Virus record (IMG/VR): IMGVR_UViG_3300035205_000600
Span: 1 to 23,380 of that record
Origin: a virus
Strand: one strand, 5' to 3'
DNA: 23,380 nt
The notes under the pieces are model-generated. The model searched no databases, was not told where the DNA came from, and was given only the letters and a program-made list of their open reading frames with translations. Shown here in pieces: positions 150-22,518 of the stretch. Numbering within the stretch: position 1 is the first letter of the stretch; the number at the start of each line of letters is the position of its first letter. A program made the position numbers and the translations under genes.

Positions 150-178
150 AAATAGGCTCTAATAGGGCCTATTTTTTT
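150..178 (+). terminator. Rho-independent terminator before terL
   Basis: An 8-bp stem, AAATAGGC (150-157) with GCCTATTT (167-174), has a 9-nt loop and runs into a T-tract (172-178). It separates the upstream gene from terL, which has its own late promoter box immediately downstream. Confidence 0.75.
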
Positions 179-181
179 ACG

Positions 182-188
182 ATAAATA
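182..188 (+). promoter_or_regulatory. T4-type late promoter box for terL
   Basis: ATAAATA matches the core of the T4 late -10 box TATAAATA, with G in place of the first T. By the T4 rule (last A at -6) transcription would start at 194, the A of the terL ATG. There is no Shine-Dalgarno sequence between the box and the start codon. Confidence 0.5.
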
Positions 189-193
189 CTAGT

Positions 194-1762
194 ATGGTCA
201 GTTCTACAGTTGACACACAGTTAATCAAGAAACCTCACAGATCAGAGAAGTTTTCAAAAGAGCAGTTAAAAGAATTACAAGTTTGTTATGATGATCCTGC
301 ATATTTCTTACAACAGTATTGTCTTATACAACATCCTATTCTAGGACGTATAAAATTTAACTTATACGATTATCAAAGAGATTTAATAAACGTATATCAT
401 CATAATAGGTATTCCATTGCTATGCTTGCTAGGCAAACAGGTAAATCTACTTGTGCGGCAGGATATCTATTATGGTATGCTATGTTTAAAGCAGATAGTA
501 CTATTCTTATTGCAGCTCATAAGTATTCGGGCGCACAAGAAATAATGTCAAGGGTTCGCTTTGCATATGAGAGTTTACCAAACTTTATTAGAGCAGGTGT
601 AACTGCATATAATAGAAATTCCATAGAATTTGATAATGGATCTAGAATTGTAGCACAAGCAACAACAGAAACTACTGGTCGAGGTTTATCTTTAACATTA
701 ATATACTTGGACGAGTTTGCGTTTGTACCCCCACGCATTGCATCTGAATTTTGGACAGCACTATCTCCTACGTTATCTACAGGAGGTAAGTGTCTTATTA
801 CATCTACGCCAAATCAAGATGACGATCAATTTGCACGAATTTGGAGAGAAGCAATAAACACTGTAGATGCATATGGTAATGAACAAAAAACTGGTAGAAA
901 TGGATTTGCTTCTATATTAGTAAAATGGCCAGAACATCCGGATAGAGATGAAGAATGGGCATCATTAGAAAAAGCAAAAATAGGAGAAGATAGATTTAGA
1001 CGAGAGCACGAGTGTGAATTTATTACTAACGACGAAACTCTTATTAGTAATCTTAAATTACCGCTTTTAGAAAGTCATAATGTTATACGTAAAACAGGAC
1101 AAATTAGATGGTATTCTCCTATAGTAAAGGATAAAGTATATTGCCTTGGTCTAGATCCTAGTTTAGGCACCGGCGGTGATAATTCGGCCATTCAAGTATA
1201 TGAATTACCTGGATGTAAACAAGTGGCAGAGTGGATGCATAATAAAACACCTGTACAAGGGCAAATAAAAATTCTACGTGAAATATGTAATGCAATACAA
1301 GAAGAAAGTGAAAACACAGCAGAAATATATTGGAGTGTAGAAAATAATACATTAGGAGAAGCAGCTTTAGTTGTAATCCGTGAAATGGGCGAAGAAAATA
1401 TACCCGGTACATTTCTCAGTGAACCTAAAAAAGCAGGTAGTGTTCGTAGGTATAGACAGGGGTTTACAACAACAAATAAAAGTAAATTAACTGCATGTGC
1501 TAAATTTAAAAGTTGGGTAGAAAATGATAAAATGATAATGTGCAGTCCGAATCTTATTCGTGAAACAAAAACATTTGTAGCACGAGGAGCATCTTATGCC
1601 GCTAAAGATGGTAATACAGATGATCTTGTTATGGCTACATTGTTAGTTGTGCGTATGGCAATAACAATAGGACAGTTTGATGGTACTATATTTGATACAT
1701 TACAAGATACATTTGAAGACGAAGGCGGCGATATAAAACCTATGCCAATAGGTATAATATAA
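194..1762 (+). CDS. terL: Terminase large subunit (gp17-like packaging ATPase/nuclease)
   Basis: This is the DNA-packaging motor, an N-terminal ATPase that drives DNA into the prohead and a C-terminal RNase H-fold nuclease that cuts the concatemer. Visible ATPase motifs are Walker A ARQTGKST (residues 79-86), Walker B LIYLDEFAF (169-177) with the catalytic Glu after Asp, and a coupling motif TSTPN (203-207). The nuclease triad is probably Asp321 in LGLDPSLG, Glu383 in WSVENN and Asp476 or Asp477 in GNTDDLVMA. At 522 aa it is shorter than T4 gp17 (610 aa), mostly at the N-terminus. The ATG at 194 is the only early Met; the next one lies at the Walker A motif. It has no ribosome binding site and lies 5 nt after a late promoter box. 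It is followed by an unknown gene and gp32 rather than by tail sheath gene 18 as in T4. Confidence 0.95.
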   Translation: MVSSTVDTQLIKKPHRSEKFSKEQLKELQVCYDDPAYFLQQYCLIQHPILGRIKFNLYDYQRDLINVYHHNRYSIAMLARQTGKSTCAAGYLLWYAMFKADSTILIAAHKYSGAQEIMSRVRFAYESLPNFIRAGVTAYNRNSIEFDNGSRIVAQATTETTGRGLSLTLIYLDEFAFVPPRIASEFWTALSPTLSTGGKCLITSTPNQDDDQFARIWREAINTVDAYGNEQKTGRNGFASILVKWPEHPDRDEEWASLEKAKIGEDRFRREHECEFITNDETLISNLKLPLLESHNVIRKTGQIRWYSPIVKDKVYCLGLDPSLGTGGDNSAIQVYELPGCKQVAEWMHNKTPVQGQIKILREICNAIQEESENTAEIYWSVENNTLGEAALVVIREMGEENIPGTFLSEPKKAGSVRRYRQGFTTTNKSKLTACAKFKSWVENDKMIMCSPNLIRETKTFVARGASYAAKDGNTDDLVMATLLVVRMAITIGQFDGTIFDTLQDTFEDEGGDIKPMPIGII

Positions 1763-1768
1763 TAAATA
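1762..1768 (+). promoter_or_regulatory. T4-type late promoter box, overlapping the terL stop
   Basis: ATAAATA begins on the last base of the terL stop codon. The predicted start is near 1774. It is followed by a good ribosome binding site (AGGAAGG, 1780-1786) and the ATG at 1791. Confidence 0.45.
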
Positions 1769-2822: not shown

Positions 2823-2850
2823 TTGACAGATAAATAATAAAGTGTATACT
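2823..2850 (+). promoter_or_regulatory. Sigma70-type promoter for gp32
   Basis: TTGACA (2823-2828), a 16-bp spacer and TATACT (2845-2850) match the sigma70 consensus at 11 of 12 positions. The predicted start is near 2857, which leaves a leader of about 60 nt before gp32. The element extends to TTGACAGA, shared with the promoters at 5819 and 8614. Confidence 0.7.
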
Positions 2851-5725: not shown

Positions 5726-5740
5726 AAACAAAGAGAAATA

Positions 5741-5792
5741 TAAGTCATTGATTTTTAAAAGAATCCAAAAATATCTGTAAGTCGTTGATTTT
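5741..5792 (+). repeat. Two 15-bp TAAGTCATTGATTTT boxes upstream of a promoter
   Basis: Copy 1 (5741-5755) is TAAGTCATTGATTTT. Copy 2 (5778-5792) is the same with one change (TAAGTCGTTGATTTT). Their starts are 37 bp apart, and copy 2 starts 41 bp before the -35 element at 5819. The same box, spacing and distance occur before the promoter at 8614. The extended segment 5764-5789 matches 8559-8584 at 24 of 26 positions. Confidence 0.85.
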
Positions 5793-5818
5793 AAAGAAAA
5801 AATAGTAAGAATTCATGG

Positions 5819-5847
5819 TTGACAGACAGATAGTCAGACCTTATAAT
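5819..5847 (+). promoter_or_regulatory. Consensus sigma70 promoter (TTGACA-17-TATAAT)
   Basis: TTGACA (5819-5824), a 17-bp spacer and TATAAT (5842-5847) are a perfect match to the bacterial housekeeping promoter consensus. The predicted start is near 5854, about 30 nt before the coding region. It would be read by the unmodified host RNA polymerase, so early expression is likely. The upstream boxes sit at about -76 and -113. Confidence 0.85.
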
Positions 5848-5883
5848 AGTAGTATAGAGTAAGGCTATAAGGTATTTTTGGAT

Positions 5884-8477: not shown

Positions 8478-8498
8478 CCCTTAAATCAGTAGGGTTTT
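8476..8498 (+). terminator. Possible terminator after the channel operon
   Basis: AACCCT (8476-8481) pairs with AGGGTT (8491-8496) over a 9-nt loop, then TT and a T-rich stretch further on. The stem is short and the T-tract is interrupted, so termination may be partial. Confidence 0.45.
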
Positions 8499-8510
8499 CA
8501 ATATTTTTTA

Positions 8511-8587
8511 TAAGTCATTGATTTTACTAGGTTTATAAGTCATTGATTTTAGGACATTTCCAAAAATTTCTGTAAGTCATTGATATC
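8511..8587 (+). repeat. Three 15-bp TAAGTCATTGATTTT boxes upstream of a promoter
   Basis: Copies start at 8511 and 8536 (both exact) and at 8573 (TAAGTCATTGATATC). Spacings are 25 and 37 bp. The last copy starts 41 bp before the -35 element at 8614, exactly as in the 5741-5792 array, and the 37-bp spacing is also shared. Confidence 0.85.
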
Positions 8588-8613
8588 ATTAATAAAACAC
8601 CAAGAAATACCGG

Positions 8614-8642
8614 TTGACAGATCTACCATATGAGACTATCAT
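8614..8642 (+). promoter_or_regulatory. Sigma70 promoter (TTGACA-17-TATCAT) for the AAA+ gene
   Basis: TTGACA (8614-8619), a 17-bp spacer and TATCAT (8637-8642) match the consensus at 11 of 12 positions. The predicted start is near 8649, with a ~36-nt leader and ribosome binding site GAGGG (8672-8676). The sequence before the -35 keeps AAGAA, then 5 variable or partly matching bases, then GGTTGACAGA in common with the 5819 promoter. Confidence 0.8.
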
Positions 8643-8684
8643 ATATATAGTGGTAGTGTGAATCGTTAAACGAGGGTTATTATT

Positions 8685-9707
8685 ATGCGAAAAGTCCGTG
8701 TTCTTAACGGCGAATATGGTGGCAAGGTTGTTACCAATACAGTGTTTCCTTTATGTAAAGGTTATAAATTGGGGAAACATGGTGGGTTCATTACAGTTGA
8801 TGGATCTAGGGTTGCTGGATATCCAGACAGAAAAATTCGGATCAAACTTGATCGGAAAGGATATGAGCCACTTGTTCCAAAAGAAGTAAAAGAAAAACTT
8901 GAACAAACCGACGATGAGCGGATGAAGGAAATCCGTGAGCGGTTTGAAATCCTGGACGAAATGACTGAGGCCACAATGGAAGGCACAGTCCGTGGTATGA
9001 TTGTATCGGGTCCTCCAGGAGTAGGCAAGTCATTTGGTGTTGAAGCAGTACTTGAACGGGCCAACATCTTTAACAAGATAGGTAGTCAGCCAATTAAGTA
9101 TGATATCATAAAGGGTGCAATGACACCCATTGGTCTTTATACTTTGTTATATAATTGGTCTGACAAAGGTAAGGTATTGGTGCTTGATGACTGTGATTCG
9201 ATTTTATTCGACGAACTGGCACTGAATCTTTTAAAGGGTGCATTGGACAGTGGTAAGAAACGTCGACTGTTTTGGAATGCTGATTCGTCTATGTTACGGC
9301 GCACAGGAGTTCCAGACTATTACGAATTCAACGGATCAATAATTTTTATATCAAACCTTAAATTTGATGATATGGTTAGTGGTGGAAGGTTAGGTAAAGT
9401 TAAAGATCACTTGAAGGCGATTTTATCTCGTTGTCATTATTTGGATTTGACACTTGATACAATGCGTGACAAGATGCTCCGTATCAAACAGGTTGTCGGA
9501 GACGGTATGCTTGATGATCATAAACTTGCTGAAGGCGAAAAAGAAATGATTGTTACGTACATTGACGAGAACAAGGAAAAACTGCGTGAAGTATCACTGA
9601 GAATGGTACTCAAAATTGCAGACTTGTTTAAAATGGCTCCCAAAAATGAGAAGTGGAAGCGGCTAGCCGAAATGACTTGTATGAAACGAGAGGTAGTTGA
9701 AGAATGA
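8685..9707 (+). CDS. AAA+ family ATPase with N-terminal KOW/SH3-like segment
   Basis: This is a 340-aa ATPase. The N-terminal ~60 residues (VRVLNGEYGGKVV onward) look like a small KOW/SH3-type beta barrel that could bind nucleic acid. A charged helical linker (about 66-100) follows, then the AAA+ core with Walker A GPPGVGKS (109-116), Walker B KVLVLDDCD (163-171) and a sensor-1 Asn in FISNL (about 221-225). The C-terminal ~110 residues are helical. It is not the gp44 clamp loader by any feature I can see. Its exact substrate is unknown. GAGGG lies 8 nt before the ATG. It is the only gene between a box-plus-sigma70 promoter and a strong terminator, so it is a single-gene early unit. Its richer use of G/C-ending codons (CGG, GAC, ATC, GGC) differs from its neighbours. 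Confidence 0.85.
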   Translation: MRKVRVLNGEYGGKVVTNTVFPLCKGYKLGKHGGFITVDGSRVAGYPDRKIRIKLDRKGYEPLVPKEVKEKLEQTDDERMKEIRERFEILDEMTEATMEGTVRGMIVSGPPGVGKSFGVEAVLERANIFNKIGSQPIKYDIIKGAMTPIGLYTLLYNWSDKGKVLVLDDCDSILFDELALNLLKGALDSGKKRRLFWNADSSMLRRTGVPDYYEFNGSIIFISNLKFDDMVSGGRLGKVKDHLKAILSRCHYLDLTLDTMRDKMLRIKQVVGDGMLDDHKLAEGEKEMIVTYIDENKEKLREVSLRMVLKIADLFKMAPKNEKWKRLAEMTCMKREVVEE

Positions 9708-12932: not shown

Positions 12933-13137
12933 ATTACTAAAAGAAGATCTTAGTAAAATACTGATCAAGAATAATATTATTAATAGGTATTCTAAGAGTC
13001 CAGTAGATAGGGGAGGAGCAGAAAATTATTTACGCGGTTGTGGAGTGAATTGGTCTGTTTCGTCAGATAAAATACTAGAAGATCTAGTAAACTATATAAG
13101 AACTGGATATTATAAAAAACCAAAGAGGAAAACATAA
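12904..13137 (+). CDS. Small basic protein of unknown function (77 aa)
   Basis: A 77-residue, Lys-rich protein with a helical N-terminus, the motif VDRGGAENYLRGCGV in the middle and a basic C-terminal tail (YYKKPKRKT). Its ATG lies within the preceding gene, a 29-nt overlap, and no ribosome binding site is visible there, so the true start may be further in. Its stop overlaps the purE ATG (TAATG). I cannot assign a function. The basic tail would suit nucleic-acid contact. Confidence 0.65.
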   Translation: MSSKKQESIKLLKEDLSKILIKNNIINRYSKSPVDRGGAENYLRGCGVNWSVSSDKILEDLVNYIRTGYYKKPKRKT

Positions 13138-13601
13138 TGGCTGTAGTAGGAATTATAATGGGTAGTGCATCCGATTCGGAAGTAATGAATCATTGTGTAG
13201 AAACCTTAGAAGAACACAATATATCATTTGATATAATTGTAGCATCAGCACATCGTGACCCCGATAAGGTTAGAACGTGGGTTCTTAATGCTGAAAAACG
13301 AGGTAATAAAATTATTATTGCCGCGGCAGGTATGGCAGCCGCATTGCCGGGGGTTGTCGCCGCATATACAGATTTACCTGTTATAGGTGTGCCAATGAAT
13401 TCAGGGTTAAATGGAATGGATAGTTTGTTAAGCATATCGCAAATGCCAAGAGGTGTCCCAGTAGCATGTATGTCTATAGGAAAGCATGGTGCAGTTAATG
13501 CCGCATTGTTTGCAAAACGTATATTAGAGTGCGGCCATACAAAAACAACTGATGACGACTATATCGATAATAACAATGAACCAGATATAGATAGAGACTG
13601 A
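13137..13601 (+). CDS. purE: PurE, N5-carboxyaminoimidazole ribonucleotide mutase (phage metabolic gene)
   Basis: Class I PurE converts N5-CAIR to CAIR in purine synthesis and acts as a cytoplasmic octamer. The 154-aa protein has the substrate motifs GSASD (residues 9-13), SAHR (38-41), LPG (70-72) and the class I run NGMDSLLSISQMPRGVPVA (92-110), then IGKHGAVNAAL. The position of E. coli His75 (in AAHLPG) is Ala69 here (AAALPG). The last ~20 residues are an acidic tail. AGAGG (13124-13128) lies 8 nt before the ATG. It overlaps both neighbours by one base (TAATG, TGATG) within a replication operon. Phage purine genes are known as auxiliary genes that raise nucleotide supply. That role is inferred here. 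Confidence 0.93.
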   Translation: MAVVGIIMGSASDSEVMNHCVETLEEHNISFDIIVASAHRDPDKVRTWVLNAEKRGNKIIIAAAGMAAALPGVVAAYTDLPVIGVPMNSGLNGMDSLLSISQMPRGVPVACMSIGKHGAVNAALFAKRILECGHTKTTDDDYIDNNNEPDIDRD

Positions 13602-15740: not shown

Positions 15741-15761
15741 AATGCTTTAATAATATTTAGC

Positions 15762-15768
15762 ATAAATA
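15762..15768 (+). promoter_or_regulatory. T4-type late promoter box for the BppU-like gene
   Basis: ATAAATA (15762-15768) predicts a start near 15774, ahead of AAGGA (15783-15787) and the ATG at 15801. A perfect TATAAATA also occurs at 15792-15799, but its predicted start would fall inside the coding region. Confidence 0.5.
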
Positions 15769-15800: not shown

Positions 15801-16613
15801 ATGCCTCGAACAATTGAATTTTACAATTATCAAGAAGAGAGAGTCTATACTTATATAAACGATAATTCTAAGACAATAAATTTGCCCATGAATAATAGAC
15901 CCGTTAAAATTTATAAAAGTACAGACAGTTTAATATCTTTTCGAATAAAGGATCAAGACAGAAAAGCCATGAATCTAAATGGACTTGATCTGACAGCCAA
16001 TCTAACAAAAACACAGGATAAAACATCTACTATTAGTAGACCCTTGTTATTAACAGATGAATACAATGGTGCAGCTCAATTATCATTAGCAGAAAAAGAT
16101 ATAAGACAATTAGAATCAGGATTATATTATCTAACTGTTACAGTTAAAGATGCCGATGATATTGTTAGACCTTTGTATTCTGACTACAATCAACGTGTAA
16201 GTGGGACAGTAGAAATTTTAGATACAGAATTACCAACATTAATTGATAGTACAACATTATCTACATTTACCGAATTGGGCGGTACGCCTGCAGGCGGTAC
16301 GGCTAAATTTTTCTCAGATGTTGTAGAAGGCGATGCTAGAAAACATGATAAAACAGGACTACATACATTTGCTGTATATGCTACCGATTTTACCGGTAAA
16401 TTATATGCAGAAGGTACATTAGATCTTATCGGTAACGATTCTAGTGATTGGTTCACATTAGATTTATCACTTGCTAATCCTTATGCTCTTTTTACTACAT
16501 TTTCTGGAGTAGATGCTTTTAACTTTAGTGGAAACATAGCATGGATTAGATTTTATTACGAAGAAGATTCTGCTAATACTGGAACAATTGACAAAATTCT
16601 ATATAGACATTAA
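15801..16613 (+). CDS. Probable virion/baseplate protein with BppU-like N-terminal domain
   Basis: Counting from ATG 15801 (270 aa), residues about 28-145 show the pattern of the BppU-type N-terminal domain of phage baseplate and fibre proteins: a charged strand (PVKIYKSTDSLISFRIKD), NGLDLTANL, a turn with LSLAEKDIRQLESGLYYLTV and a closing GTVEILD. The C-terminal ~110 residues are Gly/Thr/Ser/Phe-rich and beta-strand-like, as in receptor-binding or decoration modules. The frame opens earlier, at 15711, but that overlaps the divergent minus-strand gene and its promoter region, so 15801 is preferred. It is preceded by a late promoter box, which fits a structural gene. Confidence 0.6.
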   Translation: MPRTIEFYNYQEERVYTYINDNSKTINLPMNNRPVKIYKSTDSLISFRIKDQDRKAMNLNGLDLTANLTKTQDKTSTISRPLLLTDEYNGAAQLSLAEKDIRQLESGLYYLTVTVKDADDIVRPLYSDYNQRVSGTVEILDTELPTLIDSTTLSTFTELGGTPAGGTAKFFSDVVEGDARKHDKTGLHTFAVYATDFTGKLYAEGTLDLIGNDSSDWFTLDLSLANPYALFTTFSGVDAFNFSGNIAWIRFYYEEDSANTGTIDKILYRH

Positions 16614-17681: not shown

Positions 17682-19064
17682 ATGGCAGAAACAAAAGAAT
17701 ATAGTGCAGAATTACAAAAATTGTTTATTGAATTTTTGTTAAAAAATCACGACCTTTATGCAAGATGTAGAGGTATATTGAACAGTGATTATTTTGATCA
17801 TGAATTACGTGATTGTGTAAAATTTGTAATGAAACATGCAGACAAGTATTCTGCTGTTCCAACTAAAGATCAAGTAGAAGCAACGACACAAATTAAATTA
17901 GGAGACATGACAAGTGCTACCGAAAAATATGAAGGCTGGTTTTTAGATGAGTTTGAACAATTTTGTAAACATAAAGCATTAGAACAAGCAATTTTAAAAA
18001 GTTATGATAAACTAGAAAATCAAGAATATGGTACAGTAGAAAAATTAATAAATGATGCAGTACAAATAGGATTAGCAAGAGAGTTTGGAATAGATTATTG
18101 GGAAAACCCTGCTAAAAGATTAAAGGACATACAAGACAATCATGGACAAACATCTACTGGATGGACTACATTAGATAAGAAGTTGTTTGGTGGATTTAAT
18201 AAAGGTGAGTTGAATATTTTTGCAGGAGGCAGTGGAGCAGGTAAAAGTATATTCTTACAAAATTTAGCAATTAATTGGGCCAAGTTAGGACTTAATGTAT
18301 TATATGTATCCTTAGAATTATCAGAGCAGTTAACTAGTATGCGAATGGATGCAATGCATACAGACATGTCAACAAAAGAGTTGTTTAAAAATCTTGAAGA
18401 TGTAGACTTAAAAGTTCGTTTGTTAGGAAAAAATGCAGGACGATTACAAGTAGTACAGTTACCAAATGGTTGTAATGTAAATGATATAAGAGTATTCTTA
18501 AAAGAATTTCAGATTGAAACAAACACAGTTATGGATTGTGTATTGTTAGATTATTTAGATCTTATGATGCCACTGAATAGAAAAATTAGTGTAGGCGATT
18601 TATATACCAAAGATAAATTAGTATCTGAAGAACTACGTAATTTTGCGTTAGAAGGTAACTTTTTGTTTGTAACAGCAAGTCAGTTAAACCGAGGAGCAGT
18701 AGACGAAATAGAATTTGATCATAGTCATATTGCAGGAGGGTTGAGTAAAATACAAACGGCTGACAATGTTATAGGTATATTTTCTAGTAGGGCAATGCGG
18801 GAACGTGGCAGGGTACAAATACAGTTTATGAAAACACGTTCTTCTAGTGCAGTTGGGCAAAAGTTGGATTTTGGATTTGATATTAACAGTTTAAGAATAA
18901 CAGATCTAGAAGATGATGAAGACGATAATCAAACTACTTCGTCTTTGTATGAAAAATTAAAGCAAAAAAGTCAAGTATCAGATACAGTAGAAACAAACAC
19001 TGTAATTGAAAAAGCAGTAGATTCCCAAGATCGACTCAGGAATCTACTGCGTAAATTAGAATAA
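17682..19064 (+). CDS. gp41: Replicative DNA helicase (gp41-like, DnaB family)
   Basis: This hexameric 5'-3' helicase unwinds the replication fork and couples to the primase. The N-terminal helical domain spans about 1-140. The RecA-like motor has Walker A GGSGAGKS (182-189), the catalytic Glu in YVSLELSEQ (Glu212), Walker B CVLLDYLDL (286-294) and a motif with Gln334 in TASQLNRGAV. The C-terminal tail (about 410-460) is acidic and probably flexible, a likely contact site for primase or clamp. The length of 460 aa is near T4 gp41 (475 aa). Its stop lies 3 nt from the end of a convergent minus-strand gene, with no clear terminator between. Confidence 0.95.
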   Translation: MAETKEYSAELQKLFIEFLLKNHDLYARCRGILNSDYFDHELRDCVKFVMKHADKYSAVPTKDQVEATTQIKLGDMTSATEKYEGWFLDEFEQFCKHKALEQAILKSYDKLENQEYGTVEKLINDAVQIGLAREFGIDYWENPAKRLKDIQDNHGQTSTGWTTLDKKLFGGFNKGELNIFAGGSGAGKSIFLQNLAINWAKLGLNVLYVSLELSEQLTSMRMDAMHTDMSTKELFKNLEDVDLKVRLLGKNAGRLQVVQLPNGCNVNDIRVFLKEFQIETNTVMDCVLLDYLDLMMPLNRKISVGDLYTKDKLVSEELRNFALEGNFLFVTASQLNRGAVDEIEFDHSHIAGGLSKIQTADNVIGIFSSRAMRERGRVQIQFMKTRSSSAVGQKLDFGFDINSLRITDLEDDEDDNQTTSSLYEKLKQKSQVSDTVETNTVIEKAVDSQDRLRNLLRKLE

Positions 19065-19606: not shown

Positions 19607-19613
19607 TATTTAT
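19607..19613 (-). promoter_or_regulatory. T4-type late promoter box (minus strand)
   Basis: The complement reads ATAAATA from 19613 to 19607. The predicted start is near 19601, 18 nt before the ATG at 19583. It is divergent from the plus-strand box at 19622. Confidence 0.5.
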
Positions 19614-19621
19614 CTATATCA

Positions 19622-19629
19622 TATAAATA
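19622..19629 (+). promoter_or_regulatory. T4-type late promoter box (perfect TATAAATA)
   Basis: TATAAATA is identical to the T4 late consensus. The predicted start is near 19635, with a weak GAGA (19641-19644) before the ATG at 19653. Its centre is 15 bp from the minus-strand box, so the two cannot easily be used at once. Confidence 0.6.
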
Positions 19630-21741: not shown

Positions 21742-21775
21742 TTGACACAACATACGATATAAATTATAATAAATA
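21742..21775 (+). promoter_or_regulatory. Overlapping sigma70 consensus and T4-type late promoter
   Basis: TTGACA (21742-21747), a 17-bp spacer and TATAAT (21765-21770) are a perfect sigma70 match. A late box, ATAAATA (21769-21775), overlaps the -10. By the T4 rule the late start would be 21781, the A of the next ATG. Confidence 0.6.
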
Positions 21776-21780
21776 TTACT

Positions 21781-22518
21781 ATGGAACTATCTTTTATAAA
21801 CAAAGAAATAACAGAAGCAAGAATGTTTCGAAATAGAGCCATCTTGCGTAAATTAAGTATAGAAGACGTTGCAAATTTTGCATTTTTAAATACTCTTCTT
21901 TTGTTTATTGTATATTCTGAAAATGATACTGGACTTGCGGGAGTAGATTATGCAGAGAAAACTATCCGCTATAATTCTTTTGATCATTATAGAGTTTCTG
22001 GTTCCGATCTTTATATAGCCTATTATATATTGTTCAATACAGCTGGAGACGAGTTAATAGGTGGCACACCAGAAGGAAATGCTTTAGCAAGAAGTCGTAT
22101 AAATGTACCTATGTATATGTTGCGTAAAATGTTTAAAGAAATGGCAAATGATAGTTTGCGTATAGATAGTGCATTTATCCAACGCTTTTTTCTAATGCTT
22201 GAAAAGAAATTAAACATTAAGACAAGCAATTATAAAAGTATTAGACGATTAGTTCAAAATTGGCATAAAGCTTCAACTCCAGAAAAACAACTAGTAGTAA
22301 CAAGAATGTCTATGTATTTTAGAACAAATGCTAGGTTAGCAGAACTATTTCCTTATTTAGAAATGTTGGCTAGAAAAAGGAATTGGAACATAGATAATGC
22401 TAACAATCCCGAAACTAAAAGTGGTATGAAAAAGATTGCCAAGGGTGCCTTAAGATTAGCTGGCGCGGCAACTGCTGGTTATTATCTTGGTAAACAAATA
22501 GGCAAACTTGCAAAATAG
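21781..22518 (+). CDS. Probable virion or prohead protein of unknown function (245 aa)
   Basis: I do not recognise a family. The N-terminus MELSFINKEITEARMFRN contains ITE followed by Ala, which fits the T4 prohead protease (gp21) cleavage rule (Leu/Ile-X-Glu, then Ala/Gly/Ser). T4 internal head proteins begin with a similar short leader (for example FIAEA). The middle is helical. The C-terminal ~30 residues are basic and Gly/Ala-rich (about 221-240: KGALRLAGAATAGYYLG), possibly a single membrane-active helix. No ribosome binding site precedes the ATG, which sits 5 nt after a late promoter box, as in terL. Confidence 0.75.
   Translation: MELSFINKEITEARMFRNRAILRKLSIEDVANFAFLNTLLLFIVYSENDTGLAGVDYAEKTIRYNSFDHYRVSGSDLYIAYYILFNTAGDELIGGTPEGNALARSRINVPMYMLRKMFKEMANDSLRIDSAFIQRFFLMLEKKLNIKTSNYKSIRRLVQNWHKASTPEKQLVVTRMSMYFRTNARLAELFPYLEMLARKRNWNIDNANNPETKSGMKKIAKGALRLAGAATAGYYLGKQIGKLAK

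Follow-up and report, generated by a model that had tools for sequence, protein, structure and literature searches.

T4-type late promoter boxes five nucleotides from the start codon: predicted leaderless late genes in marine phages of the T4 superfamily

The start of terL, the gene for the large terminase subunit of an ocean phage, raises the question of where its late transcript begins. An earlier sequence-only reading had proposed that a T4-type late box places the transcription start on the A of the terL ATG, so that the gene, apparently devoid of a ribosome binding site, would be translated from a leaderless mRNA; the same geometry was noted for a gene at 21781, and the recurrence was judged unlikely to be chance. 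In the textbook case of T4, most late genes have leaders with a Shine-Dalgarno (SD) sequence. The distance on which the proposal turns was correctly stated, as passages of a review give the T4 late box 8 bp with its first base at -13, which puts its last base at -6 and +1 on the sixth base after it (PMC2988020).

The window, by which we mean the whole stretch of DNA analysed, corresponds to a single virus record, 23,380 bases long (Table 1). Its T4-superfamily genes are terL and those for a gp32-like single-stranded DNA-binding protein (SSB), uvsX, uvsY, primase, a DnaB-like helicase and another DNA helicase. The nearest named TerL proteins, about 55% identical, are from Pseudomonas jumbo phages, for example PA5oct. 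A PHROG search gave no family match for the open reading frame (ORF) at 13137-13601, which by its sequence presumably resembles PurE, and no family for the 21781 protein. The window also holds perfect or near-perfect sigma-70 promoters; a copy of GATAAATA at 2829 falls within the spacer of the one at 2823-2850. Repeated TAAGTCATTGATTTT motifs at 5739-5826 and 8534-8621 (also 8495-8591) lie directly 5′ of two of these promoters, form an 88-nt pair of 75% identity, and are possible regulator sites.

Table 1. Coordinates of boxes, genes and other features in the window and in related phages
Feature	Record	Position	Strand	Remarks
Terminator-like hairpin	window	150..178	+	11-bp stem 150-160/164-174; T-run 172-178; directly 5′ of late box
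T4-type late promoter box GATAAATA	window	181..188	+	same box and spacing in terL relatives
5-nt spacer CTAGT	window	189..193	+	predicted +1 is base 194
terL, large terminase subunit, predicted leaderless	window	194..1762	+	PHROG terminase matches; without SD; 522 codons
Leadered late box for ATG 1791 (virion structural protein)	window	1761..1768	+	22-nt gap; SD-like GGAAGG between
Near-perfect sigma-70 promoter	window	2823-2850		11/12 matches; 5′ of SSB gene near 2917
Perfect sigma-70 promoter	window	5819-5847		12/12 matches; 5′ of gene near 5878
Late box of ATG 6663	window			44 nt before the ATG
Near-perfect sigma-70 promoter	window	8614-8642		11/12 matches; 5′ of gene near 8685
Leadered late box for ATG 15801	window	15761..15768	+	32-nt gap; SD-like AAGGATGG between
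Leadered late box for ATG 19583	window	19607..19614	-	23-nt gap; SD-like AGGAA between
Leadered late box for ATG 19653	window	19622..19629	+	23-nt gap
Late box AATAAATA	window	21768..21775	+
5-nt spacer TTACT	window	21776..21780	+	spacer of 5 nt also in three distinct relatives (L081, L083, L085)
245-aa protein, predicted leaderless	window	21781..22518	+	relatives with same geometry
Phage bS21 gene	G001	62065-62220
Phage bS21 gene	G002	30335-30487
Phage bS21 gene	G003	69348-69500
Phage bS21 gene	G004	8568-8723
Phage bS21 gene	HTVC008M	91237-91392

At both terL (ATG at 194-196) and the 21781 gene the geometry proved to be as claimed, with exactly five nucleotides between box and start codon (a spacer of 5), and no SD-like stretch was found before either ATG. 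The boxes GATAAATA and AATAAATA each differ at one position from the 8-bp T4 consensus TATAAATA and count as -10 boxes; an A at -13 is a listed variant of the T4 box in the review text available (PMC2988020). Of the ten ATAAATA copies on the two strands of the window, two precede the first ATG of an ORF (at least 60 codons) by exactly 5 nt, where 0.0097 such cases would be expected (Poisson P about 5e-5), in keeping with the judgement that the recurrence is unlikely to be accidental.

The terminator-like hairpin upstream of the terL box folds as RNA at -13.1 kcal/mol (z -4.55), a stability equalled by none of 200 shuffles; a consensus terminator scan of the window did not have it among its calls. 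Because this stable hairpin and its T-run end at 178, just before the box at 181, terL is probably not transcribed from further upstream, and the hairpin would terminate transcripts of the upstream gene. ATG 194 is the sole usable terL start; in the near-identical terL of L001, the frame from the preceding stop to codon 10 offers no further ATG, GTG or TTG.

The arrangement recurs in relatives of terL. Among 55 distinct terL starts from the best 80 of 341 TerL loci, 35 were computed to have a spacer of 5 and six a spacer of 8, with four leadered and ten boxless. Six starts in the family had probably been set at an upstream ATG; rereading them (L039, L040, L051 and L064 as spacer 5, L076 as spacer 8, L075 as leadered) gives 39, 7, 5 and 4, respectively. 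The spacer is constant in length and varied in its letters, since 20 distinct sequences occur among the 35 spacer-5 starts as computed.

Boxes at this spacing were then counted over all genes of the relatives. Three sets of related loci were drawn on, the best 80 confirmed stretches being analysed out of 341, 594 and 110, respectively, and the third being split into 60 nearer and 20 more distant loci. Starts were defined as the first ATG of ORFs of at least 60 codons, rather than as curated genes, and duplicates were dropped by their 40+40-nt context; families were formed by single-linkage BLASTP (E 1e-6), and the largest, with 138 members, is probably over-merged. Eighty loci found through TerL (best 80 of 341) and five found through the 21781 protein made up a set of 85, which together with the window and six long contigs (G001-G006) yielded 2,301 distinct starts in 929 families, all of them used for the spacing spectrum.

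In the 85 loci and the window (1,557 ORF starts; best 80 of 341 TerL loci), ATAAATA stands at a spacer of 5 before 51 starts, of 6 before four and of 8 before 17, is absent at 9-15 and forms a broad group from 16 onward. With ATAARTA and all 2,301 starts (the same best 80 of 341 TerL loci plus the contigs), the peak at spacer 5 is sharp, comprising 92 starts in 20 families; spacer 8 has 28 starts in six families, spacer 9 has two starts and spacers 10-15 have none. The second ATAARTA group, at 16 nt or more in relatives and window, is broad and mostly accompanied by an SD. Since the 92 starts are partly kin by descent, 20 families is the fairer number. A constant transcription start six bases past the box would produce either a near-zero leader or one of SD length, so that a gap between the two groups is expected, and it is seen.

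Alternatively, the AT-rich box could work at the level of RNA, as an unstructured or S1-binding A/U-rich translation signal on transcripts begun further upstream. Many non-SD genes have A/U-rich upstream regions, and the spacer-5 genes do lack an SD: on G001-G006 an SD 4-mer precedes one of 43 starts with spacers of 5-8, compared with 51 of 70 leadered box starts and 327 of 869 boxless starts (13 of the 995 ORFs fall outside all three classes). Against such a signal, other genes of the same contigs carry the same box 16-45 nt upstream with an SD in between, and the terminator-like hairpins that precede many terL boxes in relatives do not suit transcripts arriving from further upstream. The order of the letters matters as well, as ATAAATA occupies spacer 5 in 18 families and the 20 other orderings of five A and two T in 0-2 families each, with no comparable peak; over the 2,301 starts, ATAAATA is the 7-mer with most families at this place, outranking SD 7-mers. 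We regard an RNA-level signal as improbable, the more so as a pyrimidine-purine step remains at bases 5/6 after the box when the ATG lies further on.

This step can be followed through all classes of box. At spacer-5 starts, base -1 is a pyrimidine in 92/92 cases (20/20 with one vote per family) versus 874/1,975 boxless starts. The 92 spacers comprise 43 distinct sequences of constant length. The step keeps to bases 5/6 after the box where the ATG is displaced by 1 or 3 nt and where the mRNA has a normal leader. Of 184 leadered boxes, 144 have a purine six bases on and 126 a pyrimidine five bases on, and a set of 142 boxes looks much the same; for spacer-8 starts the figures are 28/28 and 27/28. 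In spacer-8 genes the purine at the sixth base is not tied to an ATG, and the signature therefore follows the box. In T4, Syn9 and P-SSM2 taken together, A occupies the sixth position after 55% of the 73 boxes and G after 23%. The base pattern fits a transcription start at the A of the ATG, as T4 numbering predicts.

The same data bear on the possibility that the box is a promoter with a variable or slightly displaced start, so that leaders would measure 1-4 nt or be mixed, and that much translation comes through polycistronic readthrough. Spacers of 6 and 8 do exist, for instance nine pelagimyophage starts at 6 and the ATA-ATG arrangement at spacer 8 that is frequent in the head-closure family (17/23). 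We consider a variable start hardly probable, as spacer 5 dominates, the pyrimidine at -1 is invariant, and the sixth base at spacers 6 and 8 is mostly A or G, so that these genes would have leaders of 1-3 nt from the same constant start. The notion that AT-rich DNA simply yields boxes near ATGs by chance can be dismissed, for although the window is AT-rich and matches to TATAAATA with at most one mismatch are no commoner in it than in shuffles (89 against 106.8 expected), the spacing spectrum contradicts it with a position-specific peak that withstands letter-order controls and family-level counting and is conserved.

The codon found at spacer 5 in an open frame is ATG in 91 cases, ATA in 22, GTG and TTG in none, and any other in at most six each; the ATA codons are often followed by ATG in the rows inspected. 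Spacer-5 starts thus combine AUG as the predicted 5′ codon with the absence of an SD, both features of leaderless mRNA. Hidden GTG or TTG starts at spacer 5 behind the spacer-8 group were considered, and none was seen, the codon there being mostly ATA. The spacer-8 subgroup (6180 of L016, 687 of L013, 975 of L021 and others, with terL of L058, L061 and L066) mostly reads ATA-ATG after the box, and its mRNA would begin 5′-AUAAUG.

The phenomenon extends well past terL and the window. Besides terL, the PHROG-named families with spacers of 5, 6 or 8 are virion structural proteins, head closure, head-tail adaptor, tail tube and HNH endonuclease. A gp25-like baseplate-wedge family, judged from the member tested, has a spacer of 5 in 26 of 27 starts and of 6 in one, among contigs listed via gp55-like sigma factors. 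Short-spacer genes are mainly those of virion assembly, as a late regulon would be.

A second group of marine phages has the same arrangement. In HTVC008M, an isolated Pelagibacter phage, nine ATAARTA starts stand at spacer 5 and at most two at any other spacer up to 40. According to the annotation, these nine include genes for the tape measure (ATG at 16007, minus strand), a gp48-like protein (19456), the baseplate wedge (gp25; 31132), a DNA end protector, CsgF and a protein with a dioxygenase domain; if CTAAATA is admitted as well, head completion and a cyclase join them. A gap of 26 bp (18917-18942, KC465899) lies between the DNA-end-protector and head-completion genes, which point away from each other; it accommodates a late box for each of them, in opposite orientations and with a spacer of 5 on either side. 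Among 60 pelagimyophage loci (the nearer part of the best 80 of 110), 54 cases are at spacer 5, nine at 6, one at 7, two at 8 and one each at 3 and 24, and the box-bearing gp48 starts are at spacer 5 in 34 of 34 distinct cases among the loci listed. The 20 more distant gp48 loci of the same best 80 of 110 lack spacer-5 dominance, with two at spacer 5. HTVC008M and the pelagimyophages thus resemble the window in bearing spacer-5 late boxes on structural genes; HTVC008M differs in that its own terL is leadered, with the box 39 nt upstream.

In other phages the peak is missing. Spacer-5 ATAARTA starts number none in T4 and Syn9, one in P-SSM2 and two in PA5oct, without a peak in any of these. T4 has two ATAAATANNNNNATG strings, neither with its ATG at a start as defined above for ORFs of at least 60 codons. 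Seven other phages were searched by pattern, of which six gave zero and a Campylobacter phage two, with reversed-pattern controls of 1 and 1. Alphaproteobacterial hosts in general were rejected as the explanation, as Cr30, phiM12 and ORM_20 are without any ATAAATANNNNNATG.

We consider it very probable that terL, the 21781 gene and mainly virion-assembly genes of relatives are leaderless, their T4-type late promoter starting transcription on the A of the ATG. For the terL late transcript this was the proposal of the sequence-only reading, and it is supported by the spacing peak, the base signature and the peak in an isolated phage; the 5′ end itself is predicted. In mechanistic terms, the NATAAATA box would be a T4-type (gp55-class) late promoter whose start is the sixth base after the box. 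With that base being the A of the ATG, the late transcripts of these genes would begin 5′-AUG and lack a leader, and the 5′-terminal AUG may be recognised directly, replacing SD pairing. These phages would also have late genes with the same box further 5′ and an ordinary SD leader. The sequences themselves show the geometry, its enrichment, its conservation among families and in two marine phage groups, the scarcity of SDs and the base signature of a start site; we infer that a gp55 homologue reads the box, where exactly the transcripts begin, and that translation proceeds from there.

A gp55 homologue was present in 10/10 named phages searched. It was not detected with phrog_234 in G001-G008, nor with phrog_12791 in G001-G023, where that family matched nowhere in the search; these contigs are fragments. 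Among the listed loci, the more distant relative G032, whose TerL shares 55% identity with that of the window, also has a gp55-like gene. The link of the box to gp55 in phages of the window's type is likely but indirect.

The ribosomal protein bS21 is encoded by HTVC008M and by the four longest of the six contigs G001-G006, and is absent from T4, Syn9, P-SSM2, GAP32 and RaK2. Compared with genome contigs, the bS21 of G001 matched two loci only, in Rhodobacteraceae (41% identity) and Dependentiae (40%). As a sole explanation bS21 is insufficient, as PA5oct, Phosso, Atu_ph07 and Vibrio phage 2.275.O encode it without a comparable peak, judged by the full spectrum for PA5oct and by ATAAATANNNNNATG counts alone for the other three (0, 5 and 0, with reversed-pattern controls of 0, 2 and 0). 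Phage bS21 has been linked to late replication in the published text available (PMC9723584), and on account of this link a role in late initiation is worth testing, no more. As a speculative and rather doubtful extension, two marine groups of T4-superfamily phages might run a late regulon dedicated to leaderless mRNAs, in which gp55-class promoters fused to start codons would make the onset of late transcription also a change in the mode of translation initiation, and phage bS21 would adapt host ribosomes to these mRNAs.

The likeness to T4 itself, whose late promoters are served by gp55, gp33 and gp45 (PMC2988020), lies in the box sequence, the predicted start six bases downstream and the T4-superfamily gene content. 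In contrast, the distance from box to ATG in T4 is 12-35 nt, in most cases 17-29, an SD 4-mer is present at 22/26 leadered-class starts, and 0/334 of its ORFs have ATAARTA at spacer 5. Leaderless phage mRNAs are already known. In the Thermus phage phiYS40, most middle and late mRNAs are leaderless according to passages of the report (PMC3594737). That phage differs in host and lineage, and the 5′ ends considered here are predictions from sequence. To our knowledge, phiYS40 is not a phage that uses a T4-type late box. Isolated leaderless genes whose transcript begins at the start codon are described for lambda and P2 in the text available (PMC4633059); these are few single genes with other promoters, whereas the regulon described here would span 20 families. 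By contrast, leaders of 26-491 nt are given for AR9 in excerpts of the AR9 paper. For the methylophage Melnitz, the accessible parts of the Melnitz paper report 15 late promoters and contain "leaderless" in the reference list only. Late-promoter prediction was unsuccessful in pelagimyophages, according to passages of the study concerned (PMC7029224), which may be because the boxes abut the ATG. We recognised no report of leaderless late genes in T4-type phages in the accessible portions of the open-licence literature, outside which most subscription papers lie. What appears to be new is a T4-type late regulon that would be largely leaderless, in two marine phage groups.

Late proteins of this ocean phage and its relatives would therefore start differently from those of T4. 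The case, made at the level of sequence, is that marine relatives including a cultured SAR11 phage carry a T4-type promoter on the start codon of many structural genes. It predicts many 5′ ends to the nucleotide and, where prediction reportedly failed, gives a rule for locating both late promoters and the correct start codons; it also makes a separate initiation mode for late proteins testable.
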